Source: a virus
Strand: one strand, 5' to 3'
Length of the DNA stretch: 64,000 nucleotides
IMG/VR virus record: IMGVR_UViG_3300045146_000214
Location: 1-64,000 of that record
Of the stretch, positions 681 to 33,782 are shown piece by piece. Each line of letters begins with the position of its first letter. Position 1 is the first letter of the stretch. Under the pieces are notes generated by a model. That model had not been told where the DNA came from. It was given only the letters and a program-made list of their open reading frames with translations, and did not search any database. The translations under genes were made by a program, and so were the position numbers.

Positions 681-1583
681 TTATTTATTGTTCTTTTTTT
701 TGTTTTCAAAATATGTTTTTGGATCTACTTTAGATATTACGTATTTGTTAAGTTCTGCATCGTAGATTTTTCCACCTTTCCATGTGCCACCTTTCCATAT
801 GCCATATTCCCATATACCACCATTCCATGTGCCACTTTTCCATATGCCATCTTTCCATGCGCCACCTTTCCATGCTCCATTATTCCATATTCCAGATTCC
901 CATGTACCACCTTTCCATGTGCCGTTATGCCATGTGCCATCATTCCATGTGCCATTATTCCATATGCCATCATACCATTTTCCACCTTTCCACGTGCCAC
1001 CATTCCATGTGCCATTTTTCCATATGCCATATTCCCATGTGCCATTTTTCCATGTGCCCCCACTCCATGAGCCTTTTTTCCATGTACCATTATACCACCA
1101 GCCATCTTCCCATGTGCCACCATCCCATGTGCCATCTTTCCACGTGCCGTTATTCCATGTGTCATTATACCACCAGCCATATTCCCATATGCCATTTTTC
1201 CATGTGCCATTTTCCCATGTGCCATTTTTCCATATGCCACCATTCCATATGCCGTCACTCCATATGCCATTATACCACCAGCCATCTTTCCATATGCCAT
1301 ATTCCCATATGCCATTATACCATTTTCCACCTTCCCATGTGCCATTTTTCCATGTACCATTTTTCCATATGCCATTATACCATTTTCCACCTTCCCATAT
1401 GCCACCTTCCCATATGCCATTTTTCCATATGCCACCTTTCCATGTGTCGCCATCCCATGTGCCACCATTCCACGTGTCACCTTTCATATTTTTAATTTTT
1501 GCATCTTTATTATACCCTGTTTCATCTTTTTTATTAACTTCCACATTCGCCTCTGTTAATATAGACATAAGGTAAGGGTCCAT
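681..1583 (-). CDS. Trp-pentapeptide repeat protein (47 tandem W-x-x-G-x units)
   Basis: A 300-aa protein. Residues 1-37 are a polar leader that starts MDPYLMSILTEAN. Residues 38-272 are 47 consecutive pentads with no register break, consensus W-[KENY]-[NGD]-G-[TI]; about 28 charged residues follow. Strict five-residue spacing suggests a stacked solenoid, as in pentapeptide-repeat beta-helices, but the motif is not the classical A(D/N)LxX and I know no named family for it. There is no signal peptide or membrane segment. The ATG at 1583 has no clear Shine-Dalgarno site. It follows by 3 nt the stop of a 19-codon leader that has a good site, so translation is probably coupled. Function unknown: surface adhesion, carbohydrate binding or structural are all possible. 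Confidence 0.8.
   Translation of the reverse strand: MDPYLMSILTEANVEVNKKDETGYNKDAKIKNMKGDTWNGGTWDGDTWKGGIWKNGIWEGGIWEGGKWYNGIWKNGTWKNGTWEGGKWYNGIWEYGIWKDGWWYNGIWSDGIWNGGIWKNGTWENGTWKNGIWEYGWWYNDTWNNGTWKDGTWDGGTWEDGWWYNGTWKKGSWSGGTWKNGTWEYGIWKNGTWNGGTWKGGKWYDGIWNNGTWNDGTWHNGTWKGGTWESGIWNNGAWKGGAWKDGIWKSGTWNGGIWEYGIWKGGTWKGGKIYDAELNKYVISKVDPKTYFENKKKNNK
768..1472. repeat. 15-bp tandem coding repeat array (47 units)
   Basis: The DNA behind the Trp pentads: 47 direct 15-bp units, on the plus strand roughly CCATNTGCCATNNTT. The period is a multiple of 3, so several other frames, including two on the plus strand, also stay open through it. Those are artefacts. Units differ mainly at codons 2 and 3 of the pentad, while TGG and the GGC/GGT glycine codons persist, which indicates selection on the protein. 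Confidence 0.9.
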
Positions 1584-3282: not shown

Positions 3283-3972
3283 TCATATAGGCTCATATGT
3301 TACCATAAATATGTCTGGTTTGCACGGATACCTTTCACCCTTTACGCCGGTGATGATGAAATCTCCTGGGCATACAATATGGCCACCCTCTAATGTGTCT
3401 ATCCAACCATGCTCATGAAATGTTTTACCACATTGTGAACACGCATCTTTTCCAGAGACATCCGGTCTGCGGTAATAGCGAACAACACCACCCTCCCACT
3501 CTTTTTCTTTAGCTTCTTGTCCAGCCCATGTGCGTAGTTCATCATTTTCATAGTCAGTCCTATCTTTTTTGAAATCATCAGGATGGTCGCCATTTTTGAA
3601 CCACTGCGTTGCCTCTACTATAACAGGTTTTTTACGATATTGCATATTTTCTCCTTGTATATTATTAACATCAAAACCACCTTTTCTATAGGCATCAATT
3701 TTTTTGTTTAATTCATCAAGCCAATTACAATGTTCTGCTGAAACATCATTTTCTGCTCTTAATGCTCCTAACATCATAAAAACTTTTGCAAATACCCACA
3801 CGCCTATAAGAGATAATAGTGCTAGTGCCCAAATTTTTATACTAATGTTGAACTCATATAACTGCTTCTGTAGTTCACGCGAACTAATGTAAATAATCAT
3901 TAGTGCAGAAAACCAACCCCAGCCGTAATTGAATACAGCTTTTTGCCGAGCTATAAATTTTAATATTTTCAT
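3283..3972 (-). CDS. Two-TM anchor fused to a KYRKKPV-type phage domain
   Basis: A 229-aa protein. Residues ~18-69 hold two hydrophobic segments (GWFSALMIIYIS; IKIWALALLSLIGVWVFAKV), then a short linker with LDELNKKID. From residue 110 a different domain starts MQYRKKPVIVEATQW and ends PGDFIITGVKGERYPCKPDI, a widespread small phage domain of unknown function; here it has a CSQCGKTFHEH insert that could bind zinc. Directly before MQYRKK lies AAGGAG (3651-3656), a textbook ribosome site, so this domain was, and may still be, a separate gene starting at 3645. The TM part is a near copy of the N-terminus of the methyltransferase at 7635-8669. I start at ATG 3972 (MKILKF) because that start is conserved in both copies; longer starts read into copied nrdJ sequence. 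Confidence 0.7.
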   Translation of the reverse strand: MKILKFIARQKAVFNYGWGWFSALMIIYISSRELQKQLYEFNISIKIWALALLSLIGVWVFAKVFMMLGALRAENDVSAEHCNWLDELNKKIDAYRKGGFDVNNIQGENMQYRKKPVIVEATQWFKNGDHPDDFKKDRTDYENDELRTWAGQEAKEKEWEGGVVRYYRRPDVSGKDACSQCGKTFHEHGWIDTLEGGHIVCPGDFIITGVKGERYPCKPDIFMVTYEPI

Positions 3973-3978
3973 TATCCA
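3693..3978. repeat. Direct repeat copy A: membrane-anchor cassette
   Basis: 286 bp aligned without gaps to 8390-8675 at constant offset 4697, well above 90% identity by eye. It covers the TM-anchor codons from the MKILKF start to LNKKID, plus the last bases before the ATG. Both copies point the same way, so recombination between them would delete the ATP-grasp, DUF362, glycosyltransferase and methyltransferase genes. Confidence 0.9.
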
Positions 3979-4076
3979 CATTTCGAAAATCCGCATTGAG
4001 TGCAGACAGGACAACCATCTACGAATTTCATATCGCCTTCACATTGTGGGCATTTTCTTGAACACGCAGTCCCATC
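3972..4076 (-). pseudogene. Copied 3' end of nrdJ (zinc-ribbon tail fragment)
   Basis: About 105 bp that match the nrdJ 3' end at 9574-9678 with two visible mismatches, constant offset 5602. The reading frame is intact (DGTACSRKCPQC ... GFSKCG, stop), but no start codon opens it at full length and a stop lies shortly upstream. It therefore looks like a remnant, not a gene. The stop overlaps the ATG of the TM gene (TAATG), probably the ancestral nrdJ-TM junction. An internal ATG could yield a 20-residue CxxC peptide; one substitution relative to nrdJ creates AAGG just before it, perhaps by chance. Together with 4077-4207 this makes a stretch without a full gene; I see nothing else in it except an AT-rich leader with a 16-codon frame. 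Confidence 0.85.
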
Positions 4077-4207
4077 ATAAATGTAATGTTTGTTGGCTGC
4101 AAATCTTATTTAATTCATTCATCATAGTAGTAATATATCAATTTTACTGTATTTAAATCTTGGTAATATATATTAGCTTTAATAAAAACATAACAGTCTT
4201 TAATGGA

Positions 4208-5230
4208 TCATGTTTCATCCTTACTTTTGATATAATCATCAACACTATTAACTATTTCTCTCTCTAATAATGGTTGTTCTACAGTTTTAACCCAATGATG
4301 GTTATCGTGTGAAAAAAAACATTTTGACCGCTGTAGGCATATTGGCCCAAAATATGTAAATTGAAACTCTAATGCATAATATTGTTTACCATCAAATGCA
4401 ACATCTAAAGATAAGAATGGCACATCAAGTTTTTCAAATATGTTTTTAGCGAACCACAATAAATTATCAACATTTTCTTCTGGCCAGCTAAAAACACCAC
4501 TACCGCTTGCTCTAAAATCATTCTCTCTATTGTCTCGCTTCATTATATAATACTTGTTGCCAAAAACCAATATCTTCCAATCGTTCATCAAATTTGGTAT
4601 AAACTTTTGAATTATAAATTTTTTTCTGTATCTCGAAACTGGTTTATAACCACTATAAAAAAACGGGGCAATTAAATCCTTTATACCATTAATACCACTA
4701 TAACTTGCCTTGCTTATTTGTTTAATTATTTTTTCTGTTTGTTTAATGTCGTCTGACTTAAACACAAAGCGACTGCCAGCACCAGATGCAGCCTTAATAA
4801 CTATAGGCTCTTTAATTTTATTATTTTCTCTATATTCTTCAATTGTGCCATATACACCGGTTTCAATGTTTAACAACTCATCAATATCCAAATGTTTTCT
4901 AAGCATCTCCATACACGATTTATTATGATGTGCTCTAAAATATTTAAACTCAGGCAGTAAAATTGCGCCTGATTCTTTTAGCATAAGTAACACATCCTCT
5001 ATGTAATCTTTATAAAACAATCCTTCATCTTCTGATGATGGGTATAAAACATATTTTTTGAACAAATTTTTATCGCAATAATCAATTGTATTATATGATG
5101 ATATAACGATCTTATAGCCACGATTTTCAAACAAATTCTTAATTAATGATATATCAACACCAGCCTTATTAGTGGTTGATGAAAAGAATCTTTTATTATA
5201 ATCCACCAAAATAACTATATCTTTACTCAT
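4208..5230 (-). CDS. ATP-grasp family ligase-like protein
   Basis: A 340-aa protein. The N-terminal ~110 residues look like a Rossmann-type pre-grasp domain (MSKDIVILVDYN). An ATP-grasp core follows: IVIKAASGAGSRFVF (lysine and Gly-rich loop), FIIQKFIPNLMNDWKILVFG, and the metal-site strand FLSLDVAFDGKQYYALEFQF. Known ATP-grasp enzymes activate a carboxylate with ATP and join it to an amine or thiol. In polysaccharide loci they can add amino acids to sugars. I choose ATG 5230: it overlaps the DUF362 stop as ATGAGTAA, matching the overlap of the preceding gene pair. Last gene of the four-gene operon. The substrate cannot be read from the sequence. Confidence 0.7.
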   Translation of the reverse strand: MSKDIVILVDYNKRFFSSTTNKAGVDISLIKNLFENRGYKIVISSYNTIDYCDKNLFKKYVLYPSSEDEGLFYKDYIEDVLLMLKESGAILLPEFKYFRAHHNKSCMEMLRKHLDIDELLNIETGVYGTIEEYRENNKIKEPIVIKAASGAGSRFVFKSDDIKQTEKIIKQISKASYSGINGIKDLIAPFFYSGYKPVSRYRKKFIIQKFIPNLMNDWKILVFGNKYYIMKRDNRENDFRASGSGVFSWPEENVDNLLWFAKNIFEKLDVPFLSLDVAFDGKQYYALEFQFTYFGPICLQRSKCFFSHDNHHWVKTVEQPLLEREIVNSVDDYIKSKDET

Positions 5231-6542
5231 ATTCAATTTTTCCAATCCAACCAAATGGTGGTTTAAAATATTTACCGAATAAAGTCATTACATCTTTATA
5301 ATCATATTCTTTATTATTATGACAAACCACCATATCCTGTCCATCTAAATCAAATAAATGTTTTGCGTTTAATAGTAGCGGTATTTTTGTCCAGTCATAA
5401 CGCATTAATGCTGCATGAGCAATATCTGCAAAACATGATGATGAAGAAAAAGTTATTGCCCCAAGATTTGTTGGCCTGTTGGACAGTGGCCCGTCGCCAT
5501 CACCAGCAATAATTGCATCAGTTAGTGTATATATTGTCCTTTGTCGTTCTTTTTGAATGTGCCCATCAGATAAGCCACATAATAATATTTTGTTTAAATC
5601 AATCACCATTCTCCAAACTGTATCGTTCCCGCACCATGCTCCTTCTATAGTTGTGTCTTTATTGAATAAATATTTATATGCCCTTAATAGCGCAATTGAT
5701 GTTTTATTTAAAACACTATACTTATACGTTCCGATGTTACGATTTGCAATATCCATAATCAATTCTGCACAATATTTCAATTTGCTTGATTCGGCATAAC
5801 AATCACCACCCTTTGACATATCTCCTAAGCGATGATGCGGCAAGTAGCTTTTATCACCATTAATACCAACAATGTTTTTTAATGCTCCAGTGATTCCAGA
5901 TTTGCAATGAGTTTTTAATTTTGGCATGTTAATTATTACATCTGCATCAAAAATATCTTTCCAAATTAAATACTCATGTTTGCCTAGTTTTTGCCTAATG
6001 TTCAATTCGCTACTATCATAATTAGTTATTCTAAAATTATTTAATGTGGATATTGGCTCTAACATACTATCACATCCAAGATCAAAAAGACAATATTGAT
6101 TTTTACTTATTATTTTTTTAGAATAAGCGTTGTCCCAAACAGATAATCTTAAATCACAAACGTCTATGTTGCTCGATAAACTTCGCAATTCATTTAAAAA
6201 ATTTTCAGTTACAATGTTATTAAATTCACAATTTTGTATAGGCGCATCTGCTATAATTATTTTTTGCGGAGCACATTTTAAGATTTCCTTAACAACTGTT
6301 ATTATTAAATTTTTATTTGTTATTATACAATCAACTGTATAACCGTTATTGTTTTTGTGGCAAACAAAATTTGGTTTTATAACAACAACATCGCCATTTT
6401 TGATAATTGCATTAAATGCCCCTCGGTGGTTATCGTAGAGATAACCAGCAGAATATATAGCTTGCAACATTAAGTTTGTTAATAAACTTCCGTCATTGTA
6501 AACACACCTGTTGGTTGTCGCCATTCCAACTTTGTTATTCAT
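5223..6542 (-). CDS. DUF362 domain protein
   Basis: A 439-aa protein with the DUF362 hallmarks: VVIKPNFVCH near residue 55, then DADVIINMPKLKTH and SGITGALKNIVGING around residues 200-225 (the N-x-P-K-x-K-T-H ... T-G-A-x-K-N signature). DUF362 proteins are uncharacterised. In bacteria some carry ferredoxin-type clusters, but I see no CxxCxxC here, and some sit in polysaccharide and lipid-modification loci. The start overlaps the stop of the glycosyltransferase (ATGAATAA), so the two are translationally coupled. Rare in phages to my knowledge, and probably acquired together with its neighbours from a bacterial cell-surface locus. Confidence 0.75.
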   Translation of the reverse strand: MNNKVGMATTNRCVYNDGSLLTNLMLQAIYSAGYLYDNHRGAFNAIIKNGDVVVIKPNFVCHKNNNGYTVDCIITNKNLIITVVKEILKCAPQKIIIADAPIQNCEFNNIVTENFLNELRSLSSNIDVCDLRLSVWDNAYSKKIISKNQYCLFDLGCDSMLEPISTLNNFRITNYDSSELNIRQKLGKHEYLIWKDIFDADVIINMPKLKTHCKSGITGALKNIVGINGDKSYLPHHRLGDMSKGGDCYAESSKLKYCAELIMDIANRNIGTYKYSVLNKTSIALLRAYKYLFNKDTTIEGAWCGNDTVWRMVIDLNKILLCGLSDGHIQKERQRTIYTLTDAIIAGDGDGPLSNRPTNLGAITFSSSSCFADIAHAALMRYDWTKIPLLLNAKHLFDLDGQDMVVCHNNKEYDYKDVMTLFGKYFKPPFGWIGKIEYE

Positions 6543-7638
6543 TGAATAATACCTTTTTGTACTGATTTACTATAATGTCTTTTGAGAACTTTTTATTAAT
6601 ATCATCAAAAGCAATTCTGGCCATATCTTTATATAAGTTCTTATTATTGATTGTGTCCTCTATTAAGCCAGCTAATGAAACATAATCGCCAACGGCGAAT
6701 AAACGACCATTAACCCCATCGTTAATAATTTCTCTTGGGCCATAATCACAATCTGAACTGATAACTGGCACCCCACATGCCATTGCCTCTATAACAACGT
6801 TTGGGAATGCTTCTGTTTTTGAGCTTAATATAAACAAATCTGATTTCTTGAAATAAGAAAATGGCGTTTTTACTTGACCAACAAAATCAACAATATTATC
6901 TAGTCGCAAGTCATGTGTTAATTTTTCTAAGTGGTGCCTAAGATCTCCATCACCAAGTAAGATCAATTTTAGGTTATAAGTTTTCATCTTTAAAGCATAC
7001 ATTGCCTTTAATAAAGTACAATGATCTTTATATTTGCTGAAATTAGCACACGATACAATAACAAAATTGTTTTCGTTAAACCATCTATGCTCAACATTAT
7101 CTTCAGAAAGCAACCTTATCTTACTTGTATTAATTAAATTGTTAATTACTGTTATTTTTTTGGTTGGAACATAAAAATATTTTATTAGTTCTTTAGCGGC
7201 ACCATTAGACTGGCAAATAACACCATTGCACATTTGTAAACAAATTGGCAAAAGAATTTTATGCAATATCTTATTAACACCACTTAGTAACTTATTGTGG
7301 CAAACACATTCTCTAGCATATAATTTTATATTTCTTATTCCAATTAATGACAAAACGGTTTGAAATGTAACGCTTGACATGACAGACAATATTGCGTCTG
7401 GTTTTGTCGTTTTAACAGCACTTCTTATGCCCCTACAAACTCTTAATATATCAAATGAATTTGTACGTTTTAAATCAATAACGGTTATTTTTTTATCAAG
7501 TTCAAAATATTGTTTTTCTGTAGTAAAAACTACAACAGTAATCTTAACATCGTCAATAAGCTCGGATGATAACCTTTCAACAAAACGTTCTGCGCCACCA
7601 CATTGTAGTGTGTTTATCACGATCATCAAATGTTTCAT
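6535..7638 (-). CDS. GT4-family glycosyltransferase
   Basis: A 367-aa protein of full GT-B length. N-terminus MKHLMIVINTLQCGGAERFV is the GG-A-E-R acceptor-domain loop typical of O-antigen and capsule enzymes. The C-terminal donor domain has FVIVSCANFSKYKDH, LILLGDGDL, and the E-x7-E segment EAFPNVVIEAMACGVPVI, followed by GPREIINDGVNGRLF. Such enzymes move an activated sugar onto a lipid-linked or protein acceptor with retention of configuration. It starts in a 4-nt ATGA overlap with the methyltransferase stop. It may glycosylate the host surface (superinfection exclusion) or virion components; DNA glucosylation cannot be excluded, but the sequence looks like the cell-surface type. Confidence 0.85.
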   Translation of the reverse strand: MKHLMIVINTLQCGGAERFVERLSSELIDDVKITVVVFTTEKQYFELDKKITVIDLKRTNSFDILRVCRGIRSAVKTTKPDAILSVMSSVTFQTVLSLIGIRNIKLYARECVCHNKLLSGVNKILHKILLPICLQMCNGVICQSNGAAKELIKYFYVPTKKITVINNLINTSKIRLLSEDNVEHRWFNENNFVIVSCANFSKYKDHCTLLKAMYALKMKTYNLKLILLGDGDLRHHLEKLTHDLRLDNIVDFVGQVKTPFSYFKKSDLFILSSKTEAFPNVVIEAMACGVPVISSDCDYGPREIINDGVNGRLFAVGDYVSLAGLIEDTINNKNLYKDMARIAFDDINKKFSKDIIVNQYKKVLFNE

Positions 7639-8669
7639 ACCTCCCCTTTTTTACCCAAAAATATTAAATGTGAACGTTCTTTTTTAAGAATAAAATCACC
7701 AATGCGATAGGATATATTTTTTATAACATCATTAGAATAATATAGTAAATTTGTCTGGTCGCACCAAATTGAACTAAATCCATATTTCTTCAATCGTTTG
7801 CTCAACAAATCTTTATTAAACGACTGTAGGTGCTGCATTTTATGGAATATAGAGTTACATTCTGGACATATAATATTACTATCCGATAATTTTTCATTAT
7901 TCGGGACAGTTATAATAATAACTCCATTATTTTTTAATATTCTATTAATTTCATTAAGACATATATCTATTTTATCATTATCCATATGTTCAATGACTTC
8001 GATTAAAAATACCGCATCAAAAGTGTTGCTTGGATATGATAGTTCCCCGTCAGTAATCAATCTAGCATCTATAAAATTTTTATGTTGTTGATATTTTTGT
8101 AATACAAATTCCACTGATGTATTTGAATAATCACAAGCATACACCTTATTGTTATTCGACTTTAATAAATAATAGCATAGTGCACCATTCCCGCATCCAT
8201 AATCTAATATATTCCCACATACTGTAATTTTTTTATTGATAAAATTAATTATGGCATCTCCAACTTGTTCGGTGAAATATCCGCAGCTATGCATTGCCAT
8301 ATAGTTCCAAAAATTATTTATTTTTTCGTCACTCCATGTGACGCTGGATTGCAAAAATGAGTCTTTTGTATTGTTATCAATTTTATGACCATCAATTTTT
8401 TTGTTTAATTCATCAAGCCAATTACAATGTTCTGCCGAAACATCATTTTCTGCTCTTAATGCTCCTAACATCATAAATAATTTTGCGAATGCCCATACTC
8501 CTATAAGTGCCATCAATGCCAACACCCAAATTTTTATACTAATATTGAACTCATATAACTGCTTCTGTAGTTCACGCGAACTAATGTAAATAATCATTAG
8601 GGCAGAAAACCATCCCCAGCCGTAACTGAATACAGCTTTTTGCCGAGCTATAAATTTTAATATTTTCAT
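7635..8669 (-). CDS. Membrane-anchored class I SAM methyltransferase (fusion)
   Basis: A 344-aa protein. Residues 1-93 are the duplicated two-TM anchor; residues ~110-344 are a class I methyltransferase with ILDYGCGNGALCYY (motif I), VYACDYSNTSV (motif II), FDAVFLIEVIEHM (motif IV) and VIIITVPNN. After motif V come CPECNSIFHKMQHLQSF and KKYGF, a Cys/His element typical of methyltransferases in bacterial O-antigen and capsule loci. The anchor would place the enzyme at the cytoplasmic face of the membrane, where glycans are assembled. The start at MKILKF (8669) is conserved with the other anchor copy; a longer frame reads back into the Dam gene. First gene of the coupled operon with the glycosyltransferase, DUF362 and ATP-grasp genes. 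Confidence 0.8.
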   Translation of the reverse strand: MKILKFIARQKAVFSYGWGWFSALMIIYISSRELQKQLYEFNISIKIWVLALMALIGVWAFAKLFMMLGALRAENDVSAEHCNWLDELNKKIDGHKIDNNTKDSFLQSSVTWSDEKINNFWNYMAMHSCGYFTEQVGDAIINFINKKITVCGNILDYGCGNGALCYYLLKSNNNKVYACDYSNTSVEFVLQKYQQHKNFIDARLITDGELSYPSNTFDAVFLIEVIEHMDNDKIDICLNEINRILKNNGVIIITVPNNEKLSDSNIICPECNSIFHKMQHLQSFNKDLLSKRLKKYGFSSIWCDQTNLLYYSNDVIKNISYRIGDFILKKERSHLIFLGKKGEV

Positions 8670-8675
8670 TATCCA
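8390..8675. repeat. Direct repeat copy B: membrane-anchor cassette
   Basis: Partner of 3693-3978. Similarity ends abruptly at codon LNKKID on one side, where the methyltransferase domain begins, and at TGGATAATG on the other, where the Dam gene replaces the nrdJ tail present at copy A. The sharp edges mark recombination joints. Confidence 0.9.
8655..8675. repeat. 21-bp repeat flanking the Dam gene, left copy
   Basis: On the minus strand this is TGGATAATGAAAATATTAAA plus one A. It occurs again at 9560-9580 with one mismatch. The two copies bracket the Dam gene exactly, and removing the segment between them would recreate the nrdJ/TM junction seen at 3972. Confidence 0.75.
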
Positions 8676-8679
8676 TAAT

Positions 8680-9540
8680 TTAAAAGTTAAAAACAAGTGC
8701 CTCAACCACTGAGGTTCTGTTTCGAGTTTCTCCACCTACAAAATAAAAGTGGTCTTTTGTGACCATATTGAACTTACTCCAAAATTTCTTAATAAATGGA
8801 TTAATTCGATAAACGTCATGATGCCATGTTGAAAGAATAAATCGTGCTGGTGTTGATAAAAGCAAATTGAACAACATTTGCTCGTCTTTTTCTGACCAAC
8901 CACCATAATAATTAACACACCTTCCAATATATGGTGGGTCGCAATAAATAATATCGTTTTTTGTCGCCTGTAAAATAGATTGTTTAAAATCACCTACTAA
9001 GAAACTCCATTTTGGGTTAATAACGCAGGCGACATTGTTGACCTGATTAACTATCTTTGTAATATATGCTGGTGAAAAGCGATCTGGCTTCTTACAGAAA
9101 GGGACATTCCACTTTCCGTTACGGTTAAATCGCATTATTCCGTTAAACCCAGCGCGTGACAGAAATAGAAAATCTAACGGGTCATTTGATTGATTAAAAC
9201 GATCTCTGACTACTCGAAAATGCGCATAACCATTATCATGAGAGTTTTTAAGCAATGAACCTTCTCGCTCAAGATAATCGCGTACACTCCTTGACGTAAT
9301 TTTTAAATCTTTGATTTCGTTATAGAACTTAATAACATGTGGGTTAATATCACATAGTAACGCTTCTTGAAAGCCAGAGTTAAAAGCAACAACACCTGTA
9401 CCAAGAAATGGCTCAATCCAACGACCACGCACTGAAGGGGTTATAGATTTAATCCATGGCACCAGTTTTGTTTTGATGCCTTGACCCTTAATCGGCGGCG
9501 TAATTACACGTATTGTTTCGTTATTGTTTTCACAAGACAT
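8680..9540 (-). CDS. dam: D12-class N6-adenine DNA methyltransferase (Dam-like)
   Basis: A 286-aa protein with family motifs in the D12 order: PPIKGQGIKTKLV (motif X, residues 15-27), EPFLGTGVVAF (motif I, 43-53), LLCDINPHV (61-69), and DPPYIG (motif IV, 201-206). D12 enzymes methylate adenine N6, often in GATC, and can protect phage DNA from restriction. Target not determinable here. It sits between nrdJ and the TM-methyltransferase gene and is bracketed by 21-bp repeats, which suggests a later insertion. The weak ribosome site AAGG lies 5' of the start, inside a 14-codon frame (9530-9574, MKILKTLRPKTDVL) that seems to be the severed start of the original TM gene. Confidence 0.88.
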   Translation of the reverse strand: MSCENNNETIRVITPPIKGQGIKTKLVPWIKSITPSVRGRWIEPFLGTGVVAFNSGFQEALLCDINPHVIKFYNEIKDLKITSRSVRDYLEREGSLLKNSHDNGYAHFRVVRDRFNQSNDPLDFLFLSRAGFNGIMRFNRNGKWNVPFCKKPDRFSPAYITKIVNQVNNVACVINPKWSFLVGDFKQSILQATKNDIIYCDPPYIGRCVNYYGGWSEKDEQMLFNLLLSTPARFILSTWHHDVYRINPFIKKFWSKFNMVTKDHFYFVGGETRNRTSVVEALVFNF

Positions 9541-9559: not shown

Positions 9560-9580
9560 TTTTAAGATTTTCATTATCCA
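9560..9580. repeat. 21-bp repeat flanking the Dam gene, right copy
   Basis: Second copy of the 8655-8675 repeat (one mismatch). It spans the nrdJ stop codon and an ATG that overlaps it (TAATG), the same arrangement as at 3970-3974. Confidence 0.75.
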
Positions 9581-11832
9581 CATTTCGAAAATCCGCATTG
9601 AGTGCAGACCGGACAACCATCTACGAATTTCATATCGCTTTCACATTGTGGGCATTTTCTTGAACACGCAGTCCCATCTTCAATATAACGCTTCAACACA
9701 CGCATAATGCCTTTATGAAAGCTATGTAAATCCTTGTTCGAGTCTTTCTCTAGTTGCTCAACAACAAAACGTATACTGGCACCATGACGTATCGCCAGTG
9801 AGATTAAGCGTGTTTGCGATCCATACGCATCATTATTAAACTGTGACACAATATCCTTGATGACTATTTCGTTATCCTGACCGCGATTAATGATCAAGTC
9901 ATATTTTGTTGTGTGCATCAGTTTGCGCTTCACAATAAATGCTTCTTTTACTGATGGTGAAACTTGTATATCTGCTGCTTTGCCTGCAAACACTTCATAA
10001 GGCCTCCCATCGTAAAGTCCAATAATAGCAATCCAATCTTCACCAGACTTGAAATGATAAATATGCGCAGGAAGATCAACTGGACGTTTAGGAGCATTCG
10101 TTGAAACAAATTTGTTTGCTGTTGTTCCGGTTGACAGAATGCTTTTCAGATTGCTATTAGGACGATATGTTGTGCATCCTTTACAACCAGATTGATACGC
10201 ATATGTGTACACGTTCTGAAACTGTTCAAAAGAAAAATCAGATGGAATGTTGATTGTTTTTGATATGCTTGAGTCAACCCATTTCTGCAATACGGCTTGA
10301 ATGTCAATATGCTGCTCTGGCGTTAAATCAGAAACAGTAGTAAAATATTTTGGCAGTGGCTTATTACCAAACTTATCTCGATACATCAATACTGCATAAT
10401 CATATACTGTTTGCTCAATTTCTTCTTCATTATTCGCTCGATACTTTCTCTTATACTCTAATGCAAATATCGGCTCAAGACCGCTGGACACATTGCCTGC
10501 ATACAACGATATTGTGCCGGTTGGAGCAATTGATGTTAAATGAGAATTGCGAATACCATTAGCTGCTATTGACTCCTTAACTGAATTCGATAACTTAGAA
10601 ACAAACTTGCTGTTTAGATACTTGTCCTTGTCATAAACAGGGAAACTACCTTTTTCAGATGCCAAAAGAGATGATGCCATATACGCTGTTTCAGTAATGG
10701 TTTTCATAATCTTATCGGCAACCTCCAGCGACTCTTTTGAGCCATATTTAATTCCCAGCATTGCAAGCACATCTGCCAGACCAGTAATACCAACACCCAT
10801 GCGTCGTTTATTTTTAGCTTCAGTTTCTTGCTGCTTTAATGGAAAATTGGTGATGTCAATAACGTTGTCTAAAAATCGAACAACTGTTGGCACGACTGAT
10901 TTAATTAAAGCGTAATCAATACCCGCATTGTCTGAAAATGGATTTTTGACGAACTTTGTAAGATTTAAAGAACCAAGCAGGCAATTAGAATTCGCCCCAA
11001 GGAGTTGTTCTCCACAAGGATTTGTCGTTGCTATAACTTCACAATAATTTAAATTATTCATTTCGTTAGCACGATCAATGAAAATCACGCCAGGTTCAGC
11101 ATAATCATATGTTGATTTGGTGATCCTATCCCACAAATACCGAGCATTAACAGTACGATATACCTTGCCATTAAATTTCAAATCAAAATCGCTATCATCC
11201 TTTACGGCCTTCATAAAAGCATCAGTAATCGCCACAGACAAATTAAAGTTTTTTAGTGACACATTATCTCGTTTCGCATCAATAAACAACTCAATATCTG
11301 GGTGGTCAATTCGTAATGCAGCTAACATGGCACCGCGCCTTGATCCAGCACTCATAATTGTTTTGCACATTGAGTCGAACATGTGCATAAAGCTAACTGG
11401 GCCGCTTGATTGCGCCTGGACACCAGACACATACTCACCTTGTGGACGAAGTGTGCTATAGTCCAAACCAATACCACCACCTTGTCGCTGTGTTAAAGCA
11501 GACTCAGTAAGAATTTTTAATATCCCCTCCATTGAGTCTTCGATAGTTCCCATGACATAACAATTATTCATGGTGGTCTTTTTTCTACCAGTTCCCGCAT
11601 TGGAAAGAATTCTTCCACCTGGCAAAAATTTGTAATCGCTAAGAATGTCATAAAACTTTGTAGACCATTCATCTTTATTCTTCTCATTGACAGCAATTGC
11701 ATTGGCAACTCTTTTCCATGTATCTTCGACAGTTACATCAATAGGATTGCCGTCTTTATCTTTAAGCCTGTATTTCAAATCCCAAATTTGATAGCTTAAT
11801 GTGTTCCCCGCAACAGTTTCAACATTATTCAT
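9574..11832 (-). CDS. nrdJ: Class II (B12-dependent) ribonucleotide reductase
   Basis: A 752-aa single-chain reductase that converts ribonucleotides to deoxyribonucleotides for phage DNA synthesis. Visible landmarks: FLPGGRILSNAGTG, NNCYVMG, RQGGGIGLDYS, the radical-site segment ATTNPCGEQLLG, SNCLLGSLNL, and SIAPTGTISLYAG. The C-terminus is a Cys-rich zinc ribbon and re-reduction tail (CSRKCPQC ... CPVCTQCGFSKCG). Length and motifs fit NrdJ, and no small (NrdB) subunit gene is present. It needs adenosylcobalamin, so the host must make or import B12. The start is preceded by AAAGGGC. The 86-bp upstream gap is too short for a cobalamin riboswitch. Its last ~105 bp are copied at 3972-4076. Confidence 0.93.
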   Translation of the reverse strand: MNNVETVAGNTLSYQIWDLKYRLKDKDGNPIDVTVEDTWKRVANAIAVNEKNKDEWSTKFYDILSDYKFLPGGRILSNAGTGRKKTTMNNCYVMGTIEDSMEGILKILTESALTQRQGGGIGLDYSTLRPQGEYVSGVQAQSSGPVSFMHMFDSMCKTIMSAGSRRGAMLAALRIDHPDIELFIDAKRDNVSLKNFNLSVAITDAFMKAVKDDSDFDLKFNGKVYRTVNARYLWDRITKSTYDYAEPGVIFIDRANEMNNLNYCEVIATTNPCGEQLLGANSNCLLGSLNLTKFVKNPFSDNAGIDYALIKSVVPTVVRFLDNVIDITNFPLKQQETEAKNKRRMGVGITGLADVLAMLGIKYGSKESLEVADKIMKTITETAYMASSLLASEKGSFPVYDKDKYLNSKFVSKLSNSVKESIAANGIRNSHLTSIAPTGTISLYAGNVSSGLEPIFALEYKRKYRANNEEEIEQTVYDYAVLMYRDKFGNKPLPKYFTTVSDLTPEQHIDIQAVLQKWVDSSISKTINIPSDFSFEQFQNVYTYAYQSGCKGCTTYRPNSNLKSILSTGTTANKFVSTNAPKRPVDLPAHIYHFKSGEDWIAIIGLYDGRPYEVFAGKAADIQVSPSVKEAFIVKRKLMHTTKYDLIINRGQDNEIVIKDIVSQFNNDAYGSQTRLISLAIRHGASIRFVVEQLEKDSNKDLHSFHKGIMRVLKRYIEDGTACSRKCPQCESDMKFVDGCPVCTQCGFSKCG

Positions 11833-18932: not shown

Positions 18933-19784
18933 TTATATATGTTTTAAAATGTGTGCGACTACATCAACTGTCCACGCATTACCAATCAACTTAACAGCCC
19001 TGTGGTAACTAACAGATTTTGTATACTCTGCCGGAAGTGTTTGTAACCGCTCCATTTCGCATTGTGTAAAATAACGCCACTTAACTTCTTTTGATGGAAC
19101 TCTGCCAACACGCTTCTCGCTGGCAACATTATCTTTTGCGACTGTAGAAAGGCAATTGGTGTAATTATCATAGCGACTTTCTATGTATTGCACAATGGGA
19201 ATACTCATGTTGTAATCATCTCGCTTTCCGTTTTTCAACCTTCTTCCGCGCATTGCTCCTGCATACCACCCATCATCACACACATCTTCCCAGTGTGTTT
19301 CTTTATCGGTTGGAAGTGTTATATCTGGTATGTTTGTCCAATACAGTCTTTTCCGATCTTGTGCGCTTACTAATTTACTATTAATGTAAATCGGCTCCAC
19401 ACCAATGAAGTTACTTATTACATTTTGCCATTCTTTCCTCATGCAAACATTTTCAAGCAAAAAATACTTTGGCTTACATTCATTGATAAGACGGATGAAC
19501 TCAAAGAACAAAGCACTACGATGGTCAGAAAAATTAAGCCCTTTGCCAGAGTATGAAAATCCCTGGCAAGGACTACCACCAATCAACAAATCTATTTTAG
19601 GCAATGCTTTCGCAGAAAGTTTTTGAATACTCCCTACTTGTAGTGTATTAGGAAAGTGTAACTGTGTTATCGTAATAGCATCTTTATTGATTTCAGAAGC
19701 GTAATAATCTTTAACTTTTATTTTTGCTCTTTGTAATGCTATTTGACCACACGATATACCGTCAAAGCAGGAGAGAACGTTCAT
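18933..19784 (-). CDS. DNA (cytosine-5) methyltransferase
   Basis: A 283-aa C5 methylase with the full motif series: LSCFDGISCGQIAL (I), GGSPCQGFSYSG (IV, catalytic Cys73), FLLENV (VI, residues 108-113), SAQDRKRLYWTN (VIII), MERLQTLPAEYT (IX) and IGNAWTVDVVAHIL (X). Shorter than most bacterial enzymes because the target-recognition region is small. I start at ATG 19784 because GAGGAT lies 4 nt upstream; a longer TTG start would read through that site. It overlaps the upstream gene by 23 nt. Probably protects phage DNA from host restriction; specificity unknown. Confidence 0.9.
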   Translation of the reverse strand: MNVLSCFDGISCGQIALQRAKIKVKDYYASEINKDAITITQLHFPNTLQVGSIQKLSAKALPKIDLLIGGSPCQGFSYSGKGLNFSDHRSALFFEFIRLINECKPKYFLLENVCMRKEWQNVISNFIGVEPIYINSKLVSAQDRKRLYWTNIPDITLPTDKETHWEDVCDDGWYAGAMRGRRLKNGKRDDYNMSIPIVQYIESRYDNYTNCLSTVAKDNVASEKRVGRVPSKEVKWRYFTQCEMERLQTLPAEYTKSVSYHRAVKLIGNAWTVDVVAHILKHI

Positions 19785-30105: not shown

Positions 30106-30741
30106 ATGTTGGAAAAAATTTATACGCAAAATAAGCTCGATACGAAAGAAAAGTTTGTTGACTATTACAACTCTAAGTTTCGAGCAAGAGCAGCACAGGA
30201 ACATTCGCCGGTGTTCTTTAAAATTTCTGTCAATGGTAAGATGAAAACTCATATTCAAAAGATATGGGACTTTTTTACCATGTTTCCAGAAATTGATTTG
30301 CGTCATTATACGGATTGTGTGTTTCAATACAGTGAAGACTTGAATGGATGTTTGCCGCATAGATTCCTTTCAAAGAAGTATGTTTTGCGTTATAGTAAGT
30401 ATATTCAAGATAAGAACCATCAAGTAACCAACAAAGATCATTTGCATTTATTGGTTGAACTTGAACTTAAAAACTTTTTGGATGAGCTTATAAAAGGAAA
30501 GAAGAAATACATGGATATGTTTAATGGTGTGTTTCCGTTAGCTTCTTCAATTTCACTTTATAACTTTCCTCCTGTTTCTATTCTGGCAATATCAAAAAGC
30601 TATATGCGCTATTACCTTAATGCAAACGATAAAACATTACCAAATCCTGAAGCGTTGTCGTATATTGTATGCATTGTTAAGCAATATCCAGAATTGCTGA
30701 ATAAACTTAAACAAATAATTGGTGACGACTTTACCATATGA
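30106..30741 (+). CDS. Hypothetical protein, first rightward gene
   Basis: A 211-aa basic, helix-rich protein starting MLEKIYTQNKLDTKEK. It has a good ribosome site (TATGGAG) and ends in a 4-nt ATGA overlap with the CCA-fusion gene. No membrane segment or known motif. Residues ~105-150 (HLHLLVELELKNFLDELIKGKKKYMDMF, key features alternating Leu and Lys) look like a long amphipathic helix. I do not recognise it. Coupling to the next gene suggests a shared task. Confidence 0.7.
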   Translation: MLEKIYTQNKLDTKEKFVDYYNSKFRARAAQEHSPVFFKISVNGKMKTHIQKIWDFFTMFPEIDLRHYTDCVFQYSEDLNGCLPHRFLSKKYVLRYSKYIQDKNHQVTNKDHLHLLVELELKNFLDELIKGKKKYMDMFNGVFPLASSISLYNFPPVSILAISKSYMRYYLNANDKTLPNPEALSYIVCIVKQYPELLNKLKQIIGDDFTI

Positions 30742-33700
30742 TATATAAGAAACTGTTTGAAACTCCAGATAAATTGTATCTTGATGATGGCGGCGTTGTG
30801 GTGTTTGCCGCCAAGAATAACATTACGTTTATTACGCAAGGTGATAGTTACGCATTTTGTCAGAATGGAACATACGTCCCAATTCCGTATGCCTCGATAA
30901 GTGACACACCATATAAACTTGCGCAACCAGTTCGTATTGTAGTAGTTGATAAAAATGTTGTTGTTTTTCAAAAAGATATTAATATCAATGATAAAATGTT
31001 AATGTCATCACCCGAAGAAAAAACTAAGATGTTATCACATATTAATTTTCTTGAATTTTTGAATAAACTGGAAAATGATGAAGGTTTAATACCAAAATTT
31101 GTAAAAGGTGAAAATATACAGGGAAGAGTTTTTACAAATTATAAGACAATTTCTCTTTGGCATACTGTTAGTTTTGATTGGATGTTAAAGTTTTACAGCG
31201 TGTTCAAGAATGTTGCTGAACGGTATTATAATGTCAATGTTGATGAAAATTGGGATTTTGAAATTCCTAATAAGGTAACGACCTATATGAAAGGTTATAC
31301 TAAGTATAAGATTTCATCGTTGCATAATAGTAAAGAGAGAGTGGCGCTTATTAATGATGCTTATAAGAACCAGCCAAGCTATTATGATGATAGTTATAAT
31401 CGAAAAGTTAGTGGTTTGTTAAAGGAAACAAAACAAGAGCGTTTTTTACGACTGCTTGAAAATCCAGATATATTTTATGTTATAGGTGACGCTGGCAACA
31501 TTACTGACAGATTGTATTTTGATGAGAGTGATGATAATATTACGTTTATTGCTTGCGGAAAAAGTATTGTGTTTGTTAAAAACTTTAATTATTATGATGA
31601 TTCTTCTGCGCCATTTTATGTGATTGTTAATAACGGAAAATTTCTCGATAAAGGATATATTACTGAAAAGAAATTTCCCAAATTTGGTTCAAACAATTAT
31701 GGTAATCATTCGCGTGGTGATGTTATTGGTATAACACATTGGAACATTGGTTCTTTTCTTGACAACTACAAACAATACAATAAAAAATTCGTCGAAGATT
31801 TTTTAAATCACGAGACGCCTATACAAGGAAGAATATTTCCACTATATAATGCAGTATCACTATGGAAGCAAGTTTCTTCATCTTGGGCAAAAACGTTTTA
31901 TGATATATTTTTAAGAGTTGCGGAGAATTTTTCGCTAGAGTTTGATGATGATTGGTTTATAGAAATTCCGAGTTCTTCATATAACATAGAACAAAAGAAT
32001 TATGTTCTTAAAAGATTTTCTGAGATAATTGATGATACTAACTCTAAAAATAATGTCAATTTTGGAAGTTGGAAGTCTATGGAGCCGCCAGAAGGTATAG
32101 ACCTATATGCATGGAAGGAAATTAAGAGAGCCGGTAGTGAGTATGTTGTTAATCTTTTACAAGTGATGAACCGTTACAAGAAAGAGAAACCGAAAGTATG
32201 GAAGAAATATGTGGAATATATTAACGATACATATAAAATGCAGCCGAGCTATTACAGTGATAATCTGAACCGCATGGCTGATGAAATGTTTCTGTTGGAG
32301 GATACGTTAAAAGATTGGTCATCGTCTGTTCAAAAATATGATATGCTTGTTAAGGCACTAGAAGTCATAAAGATAATCAACCAATATGGAAAAGCATATA
32401 TTGTTGGTGGTTCAGTGCGCGATATACTTATGGGCAAAGAACCAAACGATATTGATATTGCAACAACATTGTCAACACAAGAGATAAAAGAGATTTTTCA
32501 AGATAGTTCTGATAATATCGGCCAATCGGAAAAATTTGGCATTGTAATGGTAAAATACCAAAATTATAATTTTGAGATTGCACAATTACGTAATGATGGT
32601 GAATATTCTGATGGCCGTCGTCCAGAAACAGTAGAGCTTGGCGTTTCGGAAAAAGAAGATGCAGCGCGGCGAGATTTTACTATTAATTCAATGTTGATTG
32701 ATGTTGATGGAAATATTCTTGATTATTTTGGTGGCCAAACAGATATTCAAAATAAGAAAATAAGAGCAGTGGGCAATGCGAATGATAGGTTTAAAGAGGA
32801 CAAATTAAGAATTATGCGCGCTATACGGTTTGCCTCTCGCTTAGGTTTTGAAATTGAACCAGATACATTCAATGCCATTAAAGACAATGCCAATGCTATT
32901 ACAAATGTTTCTGTAGAACGCATTACAAAAGAACTTGTCAAAATGGCTGAACAGACTGGTGATAAGTTTGCCGATGCTATTGTTACTCTCAAGGATGCAG
33001 GAATTCTCCAAAAGATAATTCCAGAAATTGTAGAAATGGAAAAATTTGATCAATCTTTAAAACATCATCCAGAAGGCGCAAAAGTAAAGAACATTATTAC
33101 GAATGTGATTGAGGACTATAATCCACAAAATCAAGAGCATTTGGATGATACCAAGTATTTAATGGTAAAAAAGGGCAACGTGTTAGATCATACTTTGGCT
33201 GCGTTACGCCAAAACAAGATTGCAGATCCTATTATCAATCTTTCAATTCTTCTTCACGATGTGGGTAAGATAAAAACATTCAAAATGTCAGAGGATGGTA
33301 AGATGCGTTATTTGTATCATGCTGAAGTTGGTGTTAATGTGGTTAATGACATTTGTGATAGACTTAAAATTGATAATAAAACTCGTCGGGCGATTGTATT
33401 TGCGACGTTAAATCATATGAAAATGCACGAAGTATTAAATATGCGCACGTCAAAAATATATAATCTCATTCAAAATGAAGATTGGGATGTGCTATATGCT
33501 GTGACCTATTGTGATGATATTTGTAGAAAAGGTGCCAACACTCGATGGGATGAAGTTGGGAAAAAGATAGAAGAGTTGGTAAGAAAGTTTAAAGACTCAA
33601 AAGCAATTAAAGATGTAGTAAATGGTGAACTGGTTATGAAAACGCTCAATATACCACCTGGTAAAAAGGTTGGATACGTTATACAAAAAACAATTAATTG

Positions 33701-33782
33701 GATACTTGATAAAAACATTGATATTCACAATGTTGATGCTATAACTAGGCACATGCGCCAATACAAAAACATTACGATATGA
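30738..33782 (+). CDS. Duplicated unknown domain fused to CCA-adding nucleotidyltransferase/HD
   Basis: A 1014-aa fusion. Residues 1-~230 and ~231-535 are two divergent copies of one unknown domain, shown by GRVFTNYKTISLWHTVSFDW versus GRIFPLYNAVSLWKQVSSSW, the following FY-x-x-F-x-x-V-A-E, and NDAYKNQPSYYDD versus NDTYKMQPSYYSD. From ~550 it is a class II poly(A)/CCA polymerase: YIVGGSVRDILMGKEPNDIDIA (nucleotidyl-transfer Asp pair), ARRDFTINSML, DKLRIMRAIRFASRLGF. From ~830 an HD phosphohydrolase domain follows (SILLHDVGKIKTF, YHAEVGV). Bacterial CCA enzymes are ~400 aa. It could repair tRNA 3' ends after host nuclease attack. No family I know carries this N-terminal half. Confidence 0.85.
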   Translation: MIYKKLFETPDKLYLDDGGVVVFAAKNNITFITQGDSYAFCQNGTYVPIPYASISDTPYKLAQPVRIVVVDKNVVVFQKDININDKMLMSSPEEKTKMLSHINFLEFLNKLENDEGLIPKFVKGENIQGRVFTNYKTISLWHTVSFDWMLKFYSVFKNVAERYYNVNVDENWDFEIPNKVTTYMKGYTKYKISSLHNSKERVALINDAYKNQPSYYDDSYNRKVSGLLKETKQERFLRLLENPDIFYVIGDAGNITDRLYFDESDDNITFIACGKSIVFVKNFNYYDDSSAPFYVIVNNGKFLDKGYITEKKFPKFGSNNYGNHSRGDVIGITHWNIGSFLDNYKQYNKKFVEDFLNHETPIQGRIFPLYNAVSLWKQVSSSWAKTFYDIFLRVAENFSLEFDDDWFIEIPSSSYNIEQKNYVLKRFSEIIDDTNSKNNVNFGSWKSMEPPEGIDLYAWKEIKRAGSEYVVNLLQVMNRYKKEKPKVWKKYVEYINDTYKMQPSYYSDNLNRMADEMFLLEDTLKDWSSSVQKYDMLVKALEVIKIINQYGKAYIVGGSVRDILMGKEPNDIDIATTLSTQEIKEIFQDSSDNIGQSEKFGIVMVKYQNYNFEIAQLRNDGEYSDGRRPETVELGVSEKEDAARRDFTINSMLIDVDGNILDYFGGQTDIQNKKIRAVGNANDRFKEDKLRIMRAIRFASRLGFEIEPDTFNAIKDNANAITNVSVERITKELVKMAEQTGDKFADAIVTLKDAGILQKIIPEIVEMEKFDQSLKHHPEGAKVKNIITNVIEDYNPQNQEHLDDTKYLMVKKGNVLDHTLAALRQNKIADPIINLSILLHDVGKIKTFKMSEDGKMRYLYHAEVGVNVVNDICDRLKIDNKTRRAIVFATLNHMKMHEVLNMRTSKIYNLIQNEDWDVLYAVTYCDDICRKGANTRWDEVGKKIEELVRKFKDSKAIKDVVNGELVMKTLNIPPGKKVGYVIQKTINWILDKNIDIHNVDAITRHMRQYKNITI

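Follow-up and report, generated by a model that had tools for sequence, protein, structure and literature searches.

A four-gene polysaccharide-type cassette with a DUF362–ATP-grasp pair in an uncultured phage carrying T4-type genes

Organisation of the Cassette

The virus record IMGVR_UViG_3300045146_000214 (81.4 kb) represents an uncultured phage whose tail and recombination genes are of the T4 type; its first 64,000 nucleotides form the window analysed here. Four intact, overlapping ORFs occupy its minus strand from 8669 to 4208 and code, in this order, for a methyltransferase, a GT4-family glycosyltransferase, a DUF362 protein and an ATP-grasp protein (Table 1). A preliminary description of this DNA had joined the four genes by an ATGA and two further overlaps, all of which are present, namely 4 bp (ATGA) between the methyltransferase and GT4 genes, 8 bp (ATGAATAA) between GT4 and DUF362, and 8 bp (ATGAGTAA) between DUF362 and ATP-grasp. 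Such overlapping starts and stops on one strand support its reading of the genes as a single operon. The ORFs harbour no inner stops, GT4, ATP-grasp and DUF362 retain their conserved residues, and the motifs that had been named (CGGAERF, E-x7-E and CPEC...HLQSF) are found in the sequence.

The cassette is located in the DNA-metabolism half of the phage, adjoining ribonucleotide reductase. Its GC content is 28–31% (GC3 0.23–0.25), and that of the core replication genes of the phage is higher, at 35–42% (GC3 0.31–0.39). The cassette lacks genes for a flippase, a polymerase and nucleotide-sugar synthesis and would thus rely on the host. The sole PADLOC match in the cassette, mad2 (2.4e-14, on the methyltransferase domain), was taken as a generic domain match.

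Table 1. Features of the cassette and of the adjoining phage sequence (window positions).
Feature	Position	Strand	Basis or remark
SAM-dependent methyltransferase ORF (whole)	7635–8669	-	Leader + enzyme domain
SAM-dependent methyltransferase domain, class I, Methyltransf_11/23	7635–8389	-	Pfam Methyltransf_11 3.4e-18, residues 155–253; outside duplicated leader
GT4-family glycosyltransferase	6535–7638	-	Pfam Glycos_transf_1 1.7e-37
DUF362 protein, LarA (nickel-pincer racemase) clan	5223–6542	-	PF04015 1.1e-23; conserved H212, K222, H236
RimK/ArgX-type ATP-grasp carboxylate-amine ligase (predicted)	4208–5230	-	Alignment, RimK Pfam in relatives, Foldseek; K146, D276, E288 kept
Leader copy 1: membrane-protein gene 5' end, ~93 codons, hydrophobic segment	8390–8675	-	Fused in frame to methyltransferase
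Leader copy 2 (3693–3975) fused to phrog_419 phage domain (3283–3692)	3283–3975	-	Duplication + phrog match
Remnant copy of ribonucleotide reductase 3' end, in left flanking repeat	3976–4091	-	Repeat comparison
Dam-type adenine DNA methyltransferase, between ribonucleotide reductase and leader copy 1	8680–9540	-	MethyltransfD12 4.9e-39
Phage ribonucleotide reductase, tail intact, right border of island	9574–11832	-	Ribonuc_red_lgC 5.2e-129

Duplicated Phage Sequence around the Cassette

The cassette lies between duplicated phage sequence, with a leader copy at one end and a duplicate of the ribonucleotide reductase tail at the other. Leader copy 1 and positions 3693–3978 share 92.7% DNA identity over 286 bp, and positions 3958–4086 are 95% identical over 129 bp to 9560–9688 in the reductase tail. 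This difference of 5–7% between the flanking copies would not be expected had the assembly collapsed or looped a single repeat. The Dam-type gene is itself flanked by 21-bp direct repeats (8655–8675 and 9560–9580, 20 of 21 positions identical). Within the 81 kb record, the leader/tail repeat was found at no further places that would mark it as a dispersed element, and the leader has no match in known phages.

The methyltransferase had been described as membrane-anchored. The anchor, comprising residues ~1–93 and including the hydropathy peak of the ORF (residues 43–71), proves to be the duplicated phage leader, of which a 93% DNA copy starts ORF 3283–3975, and is not part of the imported enzyme. 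With regard to the relatives of the phage itself, IMG/VR matches obtained via ribonucleotide reductase (L004–L012) are unrelated phages without shared synteny. For the large baseplate protein, all matches in known phages are distant, and IMG/VR gave none. No relative thus revealed an empty insertion site.

Glycosyltransferase and ATP-Grasp Protein

The GT4 protein carries Glycos_transf_1 and Glyco_transf_4 domains together with the E-x7-E motif of the family, and its GG-x-ER and E276/E284 are invariant in the GT4 alignment. It resembles PglJ and TIGR03088, but scores under the NCBIfam cut-offs.

The ATP-grasp protein has no match of its own in the Pfam scan and is divergent (18–24% identity to its relatives), and eight of the ten members of its alignment match the RimK Pfam. 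K146, D276 and E288 are invariant across this alignment; by analogy with ATP-grasp enzymes in general, we take them to bind ATP and Mg. A partial, low-confidence structure model, poor over the first 100 residues (mean pLDDT 60.6), matches ArgX, LysX and RimK (Foldseek, E 2.7e-11). In the PDB, a weak match to an L-amino acid ligase was the sole one returned by a single-sequence search (E 0.17). The only relative on a plasmid belongs to an E. coli capsule locus, where it adjoins N5-(carboxyethyl)ornithine synthase. A TupA-like identity (PF14305) was ruled out by the lack of a Pfam match and by pairwise comparison (E 1.4).

The DUF362 Protein and Its Likeness to LarA

DUF362 (PF04015), which shares the Pfam clan CL0471 with LarA (PMC11770544), is the sole domain detected in the third protein by the Pfam scan, at 84.8 bits against a gathering score of 24; no Lar_N domain (PF09861) was found. 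The top 16 PDB fold matches of its structure model (pLDDT 89) are all LarA-family proteins, the best with E 4.2e-5 and probability 1.00, at TM-scores of just 0.2–0.3. A weak hhalign alignment (E 0.0017, probability 15.6%) pairs K222 and H237 with LarA K183 and H199, which are the Lys linked to the cofactor and the His that binds Ni. For this cofactor, PMC12611868 gives a mass of about 449 Da. K222 is invariant in 31 of 31 DUF362 sequences; position 237 is His in 20 of the 31, and the neighbouring H236 is invariant. In addition, H212 aligns with the second catalytic His of LarA (His174), the alignment not extending over the region of the first (His108); certain members of the LarA superfamily have a single catalytic His.

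The DUF362 protein thus resembles the LarA nickel-pincer 2-hydroxy-acid racemases in its clan, its fold matches and a His-x9-Lys followed by a His 14–16 residues on, but differs from them in lacking a Lar_N match and an identified equivalent of the first catalytic His. Moreover, LarC, a protein of cofactor synthesis, is absent from all seven virus records with DUF362, this phage record included, whereas it is present in six of the nine bacterial genomes that carry the DUF362–ATP-grasp pair. From its residues, DUF362 appears to keep a His-Lys-His pattern like that of the nickel-pincer site of LarA, and it may have a related chemistry. No DUF362-like fold was found in the viral structure library BFVD, and the literature search returned no glycan-synthesis role for DUF362; PMC12423673 was a false lead, the names in it being DUF3623 and DUF3120-type.

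Bacterial Loci with the Same Genes

In nine bacterial genomes, DUF362 is directly followed by a RimK-type ATP-grasp gene, mostly with a GT4-type gene next to the pair or near it, in loci that also hold glycosyltransferases, epimerases and nucleotide-sugar dehydrogenases and contain no further ATP-grasp match of this type. For DUF362 and ATP-grasp, this adjacency does not fit unrelated genes acquired one by one, the outcome that would have spoken against the preliminary description. The phage DUF362 nests within the clade of ATP-grasp partners (tree support 100/99), its nearest neighbour being a Verrucomicrobiota protein (97/91). Capsule/O-antigen-type loci of this kind (e.g., L014–L017) share with the phage the gene families and the adjacent DUF362 and ATP-grasp genes in the same order. 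However, GT4 comes after the pair in bacteria and before it in the phage, the assembly machinery is fuller there, and the methyltransferase of the phage carries a fused phage leader. As members of the same families are neighbours in polysaccharide-type loci of bacteria, the assignment of the glycosyltransferase and methyltransferase to O-antigen/capsule-type enzymes is supported, and the acyl- or aminoacyl-glycan function put forward for the cassette is plausible.

The association extends beyond RimK-type partners. Another DUF362 relative belongs to a capsule locus of Firmicutes type, in which genes for a TupA-like ATP-grasp and a CapK-like protein also occur; such TupA-like (PF14305) loci likewise join an ATP-grasp ligase to DUF362 in a polysaccharide context, although the TupA-like protein has no pairwise similarity to the phage ATP-grasp. 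Overall, 25 of 26 glycan loci have an ATP-dependent ligase-type gene at most two genes from DUF362, drawn from four families (RimK-type, TupA-like, CapK-like and asparagine-synthase-like). Ligase-type genes account for 24 of 51 immediate DUF362 neighbours versus 7 of 293 other genes (Fisher 6e-17), a count for which some ligase reference proteins were picked after the loci had been seen.

Related Genes in Other Phages

Searches of other phages and viruses yielded this four-gene cassette in no other phage. In IMG/VR, six further virus records, four of them with clear phage genes, have DUF362 and such a ligase in glycan-type islands, and their DUF362–ligase genes represent an acquisition independent of this cassette. 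The pair is located 3' of the Gp23 capsid gene in L094, upstream of the major head protein in L105 and downstream of the portal gene in L107. An apparent case in MT835502 ('Bacteriophage sp.', 18.7 kb) was discarded, since it reads as a Firmicutes-type polysaccharide locus.

Among known systems, T4-like cyanophages (P-SSM2, S-SSM7 and S-SM2) carry large LPS-type clusters that are presumed to modify the glycans on the host surface (PMC3037559, PMC7824862). These resemble the cassette as glycosyltransferase and sugar-modifying genes in phages with T4-type genes, but exceed it in size and provide for nucleotide-sugar synthesis themselves, and the passages considered here mention neither DUF362 nor a ligase pairing. 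As the Pfam scan gave no match to an epimerase, a dehydratase or a nucleotidyltransferase, the cassette does not qualify as an LPS cluster of the cyanophage type despite its GT4 gene. Nor is it a Gtr-type O-antigen conversion cassette, as the GtrA flippase, the GT2 GtrB and the multi-span GtrV are all absent among the four ORFs. In view of the cyanophage clusters as described in those passages and of the six virus records, the earlier statement that nothing comparable was known in T4-like phages is not supported.

Proposed Function and Alternative Explanations

We consider the cassette to be a piece of a bacterial surface-polysaccharide locus that the phage has captured as cargo and that modifies a host-envelope glycan, with a probability of about 0.6. 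Its most likely role would be acyl or aminoacyl decoration combined with methyl capping of that glycan. As predicted from the gene families, DUF362 would prepare a small carboxylic acid, with epimerisation of an alpha-hydroxy acid as one possible route, and the ATP-grasp ligase would activate a carboxylate with ATP to form an amide, by which either an amino sugar would receive the acid or a uronic acid would receive an amino acid. The GT4 enzyme would attach the sugar to a glycan that is lipid-linked or part of the envelope, and the methyltransferase, anchored in the inner membrane through its phage-derived leader, would cap or modify it. Competing phages might adsorb less well to a host envelope altered in this way during infection, which would amount to superinfection exclusion.

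A less likely use of the same enzymes, to which we give roughly one chance in six, would be to add a glycan or aminoacyl-glycan to the capsid or tail of the virion. The DUF362–ligase pairs among virion genes in L094, L105 and L107 are in its favour; here, however, the cassette sits beside ribonucleotide reductase in the DNA-metabolism half and its methyltransferase is membrane-tethered, and on both counts an envelope target fits better. It is more doubtful still that the genes do nothing during infection, being inert cargo, cargo carried only transiently or an artefact of assembly. The cassette comes from a single record, its GC lies below that of the phage, and flanking duplications are spots where cargo comes and goes, but the intact overlapping ORFs with retained conserved residues and the independent DUF362–ligase pairs of other phages argue against this.

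Two further explanations are very improbable. Three DNA-methyltransferase-type genes nearby (the Dam-type gene at 8680–9540, phrog_3816 at 1668–2198 and a C5 enzyme at 18933–19784) could suggest hypermodification, with the glycosyltransferase, methyltransferase and ligase acting on phage DNA bases. Yet those DUF362 and ATP-grasp relatives that can be placed are in bacterial polysaccharide-type loci, the best GT4 matches are polysaccharide and protein-glycan enzymes, and no other viral DUF362 gene was seen within a DNA-modification cluster. At the level of gene context, the cassette genes thus showed no sign of the known DNA hypermodification pathway that the preliminary description had named as a counter-indication. 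Alternatively, the product might be a diffusible glycoside or amino-acid conjugate instead of a surface decoration. The account of jumbo cyanophages in PMC7824862 proposes that their clusters make sugar and amino-acid secondary metabolites, and the weak L-amino acid ligase hit of ATP-grasp points the same way, but the bacterial neighbours of these genes are polysaccharide assembly genes.

Implications for DUF362 and Phage Biology

Beyond the cassette as a captured envelope-modifying fragment, we tentatively propose a broader, rather less likely idea. The DUF362 proteins of polysaccharide loci may be LarA-like nickel-pincer enzymes, or derived ones, that work as a unit with an ATP-dependent ligase of exchangeable type and build unusual acyl or aminoacyl glycan decorations; phages may have taken up such a unit on at least two occasions, as a means of changing host surfaces or their own particles. 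The uncharacterised DUF362 family is widespread, and its recurrent pairing with four ligase families, together with the LarA-like residues, provides a specific and testable idea of function. The repeated capture suggests that phages benefit from glycan decoration, and DUF362 with a ligase may serve as markers for finding more such islands.

Genomic setting of the cassette

The cassette consists of four intact minus-strand ORFs on an IMG/VR virus record of 81,446 bases, of which the window covers 1-64000. The overlaps claimed in the preliminary description were borne out, consecutive ORFs sharing 4, 8 and 8 bases; the Pfam scan gave no direct match for the ATP-grasp protein. A run of four overlapping ORFs, 340-440 codons long and backed by family matches, is not a product of chance. 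Their GC and GC3 are lower than those of the core replication genes of the phage.

Features of the cassette and of the adjoining Dam gene
Feature	Position	Strand	Pfam match
Methyltransferase ORF, intact	8669-7635	minus	Methyltransf_11, 3.4e-18
GT4 ORF, intact	7638-6535	minus	Glycos_transf_1, 1.7e-37
DUF362 ORF, intact	6542-5223	minus	DUF362, 1.1e-23
ATP-grasp ORF, intact	5230-4208	minus	
21-bp direct repeats bounding Dam	8655-8675, 9560-9580		

The record carries genes for baseplate wedge and hub proteins, a UvsX-like recombinase, an SbcC-like nuclease subunit, a phage DNA helicase, a DnaB-like helicase and ribonucleotide reductase. Its DNA polymerase matches phrog_405 and reads, by eye, as PHP/DnaE-type, not T4 type. 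Terminase, Gp23 and portal (three models tried) had no match on the record, which is therefore probably partial, and neither known phages nor IMG/VR records yielded a close relative. ARAGORN found no tRNA genes in the window, where a 300-residue protein made almost entirely of 15-base (five-residue, GTWKN-like) repeats (681-1583, minus strand) and a poly(A) polymerase/CCA-adding-type domain within a 1014-residue protein of the structural half (30738-33782, plus strand) were noticed. Beyond the window, the record (stretch L003) encodes a caspase-family protein (Peptidase_C14, 2.6e-15; L003:11348-12217, record bases 73347-74216) and, near its end, consecutively, a weak sulfotransferase-like ORF, a papain-family protease and a YaeF/YiiX-type papain-like amidase (L003:15968-17949, record bases 77967-79948).

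The first ~93 codons of the methyltransferase ORF do not belong to the enzyme. Over 286 bp, 8390-8675 matches 3693-3978 at 92.7% identity; the latter stretch opens ORF 3283-3975, whose remainder is phage domain phrog_419. Two different proteins carry the same membrane leader (3693-3975, 8390-8675) as a fusion, which gives it the look of a reusable 5' module. Just before the second leader copy, 3958-4086 is 95% identical to the ribonucleotide reductase gene end (9560-9688). The minus-strand order is therefore reductase, Dam methyltransferase, leader fused to methyltransferase, GT4, DUF362, ATP-grasp, reductase-tail remnant, and leader fused to the phrog_419 domain, so that copies of the reductase-tail/leader junction flank the cassette on both sides. 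The rest of the record holds no further copies of the long repeats. The 5-7% divergence between copies argues against a simple assembly loop; the arrangement suggests that the junction is a site of cargo uptake by recombination, a mechanism that we infer.

Bacterial relatives of the DUF362-ATP-grasp pair

One DUF362-alignment scan of bacterial and archaeal genomes returned 80 loci. In nine (L013-L020 and L028), from Verrucomicrobiota, Bacteroidota, Ignavibacteriota, Aminicenantota and Thermodesulfobacteriota, the gene right after DUF362 encodes a relative of the phage ATP-grasp protein, mostly with a GT4-type gene next to the pair or nearby, and the surroundings hold glycosyltransferases, epimerases and nucleotide-sugar dehydrogenases. 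Within these nine, ATP-grasp matches occurred at no position other than directly after DUF362.

When 31 DUF362 proteins were placed on a tree, the clade of the phage protein included eight of the nine pair-locus proteins (support 100/99), and the phage protein lay beside one from Verrucomicrobiota (97/91). Those eight DUF362 proteins are 37-41% identical to the phage one; the ATP-grasp proteins share 18-24% and the GT4 enzymes 20-28% with their phage counterparts. Values this low imply an old capture or an unsampled donor. Independently of that scan, the phage ATP-grasp protein has a single plasmid relative (25% identity, E 2e-4), encoded in a capsule locus of E. coli next to N5-(carboxyethyl)ornithine synthase, an enzyme making an unusual amino acid.

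DUF362 and ligase-type genes elsewhere

In the remaining loci, DUF362 neighbours TupA-like ATP-grasp (Firmicutes), CapK/PaaK-like adenylate or asparagine-synthase-like enzymes. With four ligase kinds pooled, a ligase-type gene lies within two genes of DUF362 in 25 of 26 loci, and such genes make up 24/51 immediate DUF362 neighbours vs 7/293 other genes (Fisher 6e-17, the loci being related by descent, and the reference proteins for asparagine synthase, together with one for CapK, having been picked after the loci had been seen). Judging by their families, the four kinds have in common an ATP-dependent activation step, acting in most on a carboxylate. The TupA-like example (PF14305, 1.7e-82) comes from MT835502 (L002), deposited as 'Bacteriophage sp.' (unverified); its 18.7 kb stretch is a Firmicutes-type polysaccharide locus, and MT835502 is probably bacterial DNA.

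A broader profile found DUF362 in six further IMG/VR records (L094/L103, L104-L108), in all of which an asparagine-synthase-like or CapK-like gene adjoins or is near it. Four stretches hold clear phage genes, namely Gp23 capsid (L094), major head protein (L105), portal (L107) and endolysin (L108); the viral origin of L104 and L106 is backed by IMG/VR classing only, L104 also having a phage-type homing endonuclease. A UDP-glucose/GDP-mannose dehydrogenase-type gene follows DUF362 in four (L105-L108; Pfam-checked in L105 and L106). These six proteins form their own clade (99/96, same tree), separate from the window protein, which implies at least two acquisitions.

A LarA-like candidate site

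The predicted DUF362 structure, a good model (pLDDT 89.2), has as its top PDB fold matches LarA-family nickel-pincer enzymes, with low TM-scores; Pfam clan CL0471 includes both DUF362 and LarA (DUF2088) (PMC11770544). When the DUF362 profile was compared with five LarA-family sequences from the same set of bacterial genomes, one alignment resulted (E 0.0017, probability only 15.6%), pairing DUF362 H212, K222 and H237 with LarA H173, K183 and H199. By our own numbering match, the latter would be His174 (catalytic), Lys184 (cofactor-linked) and His200 (nickel-binding) of L. plantarum LarA (PMC9283937, PMC12611868). H212, K222 and H236 are invariant in all 31 DUF362 proteins, and position 237 is His in 20; these conserved residues likely form a putative cofactor-type site.

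LarC, the nickel-inserting enzyme, is present in six of the nine bacterial genomes with the pair and absent from all seven virus records; the phage would therefore depend on host LarC. The genomes of L014, L016 and L028 have LarC without any Lar_N match, and among 14 control genomes LarC occurs in six vs LarA in two, observations that allow for additional users of the nickel pincer, e.g. DUF362.

Significance

The cassette is a phage-captured fragment of a bacterial surface-glycan locus, best read as serving decoration and capping. No description of the general DUF362-ligase pairing was found in the literature searched. The cassette is of a known kind, that of phage LPS clusters (PMC3037559, PMC7824862), but its composition is new.
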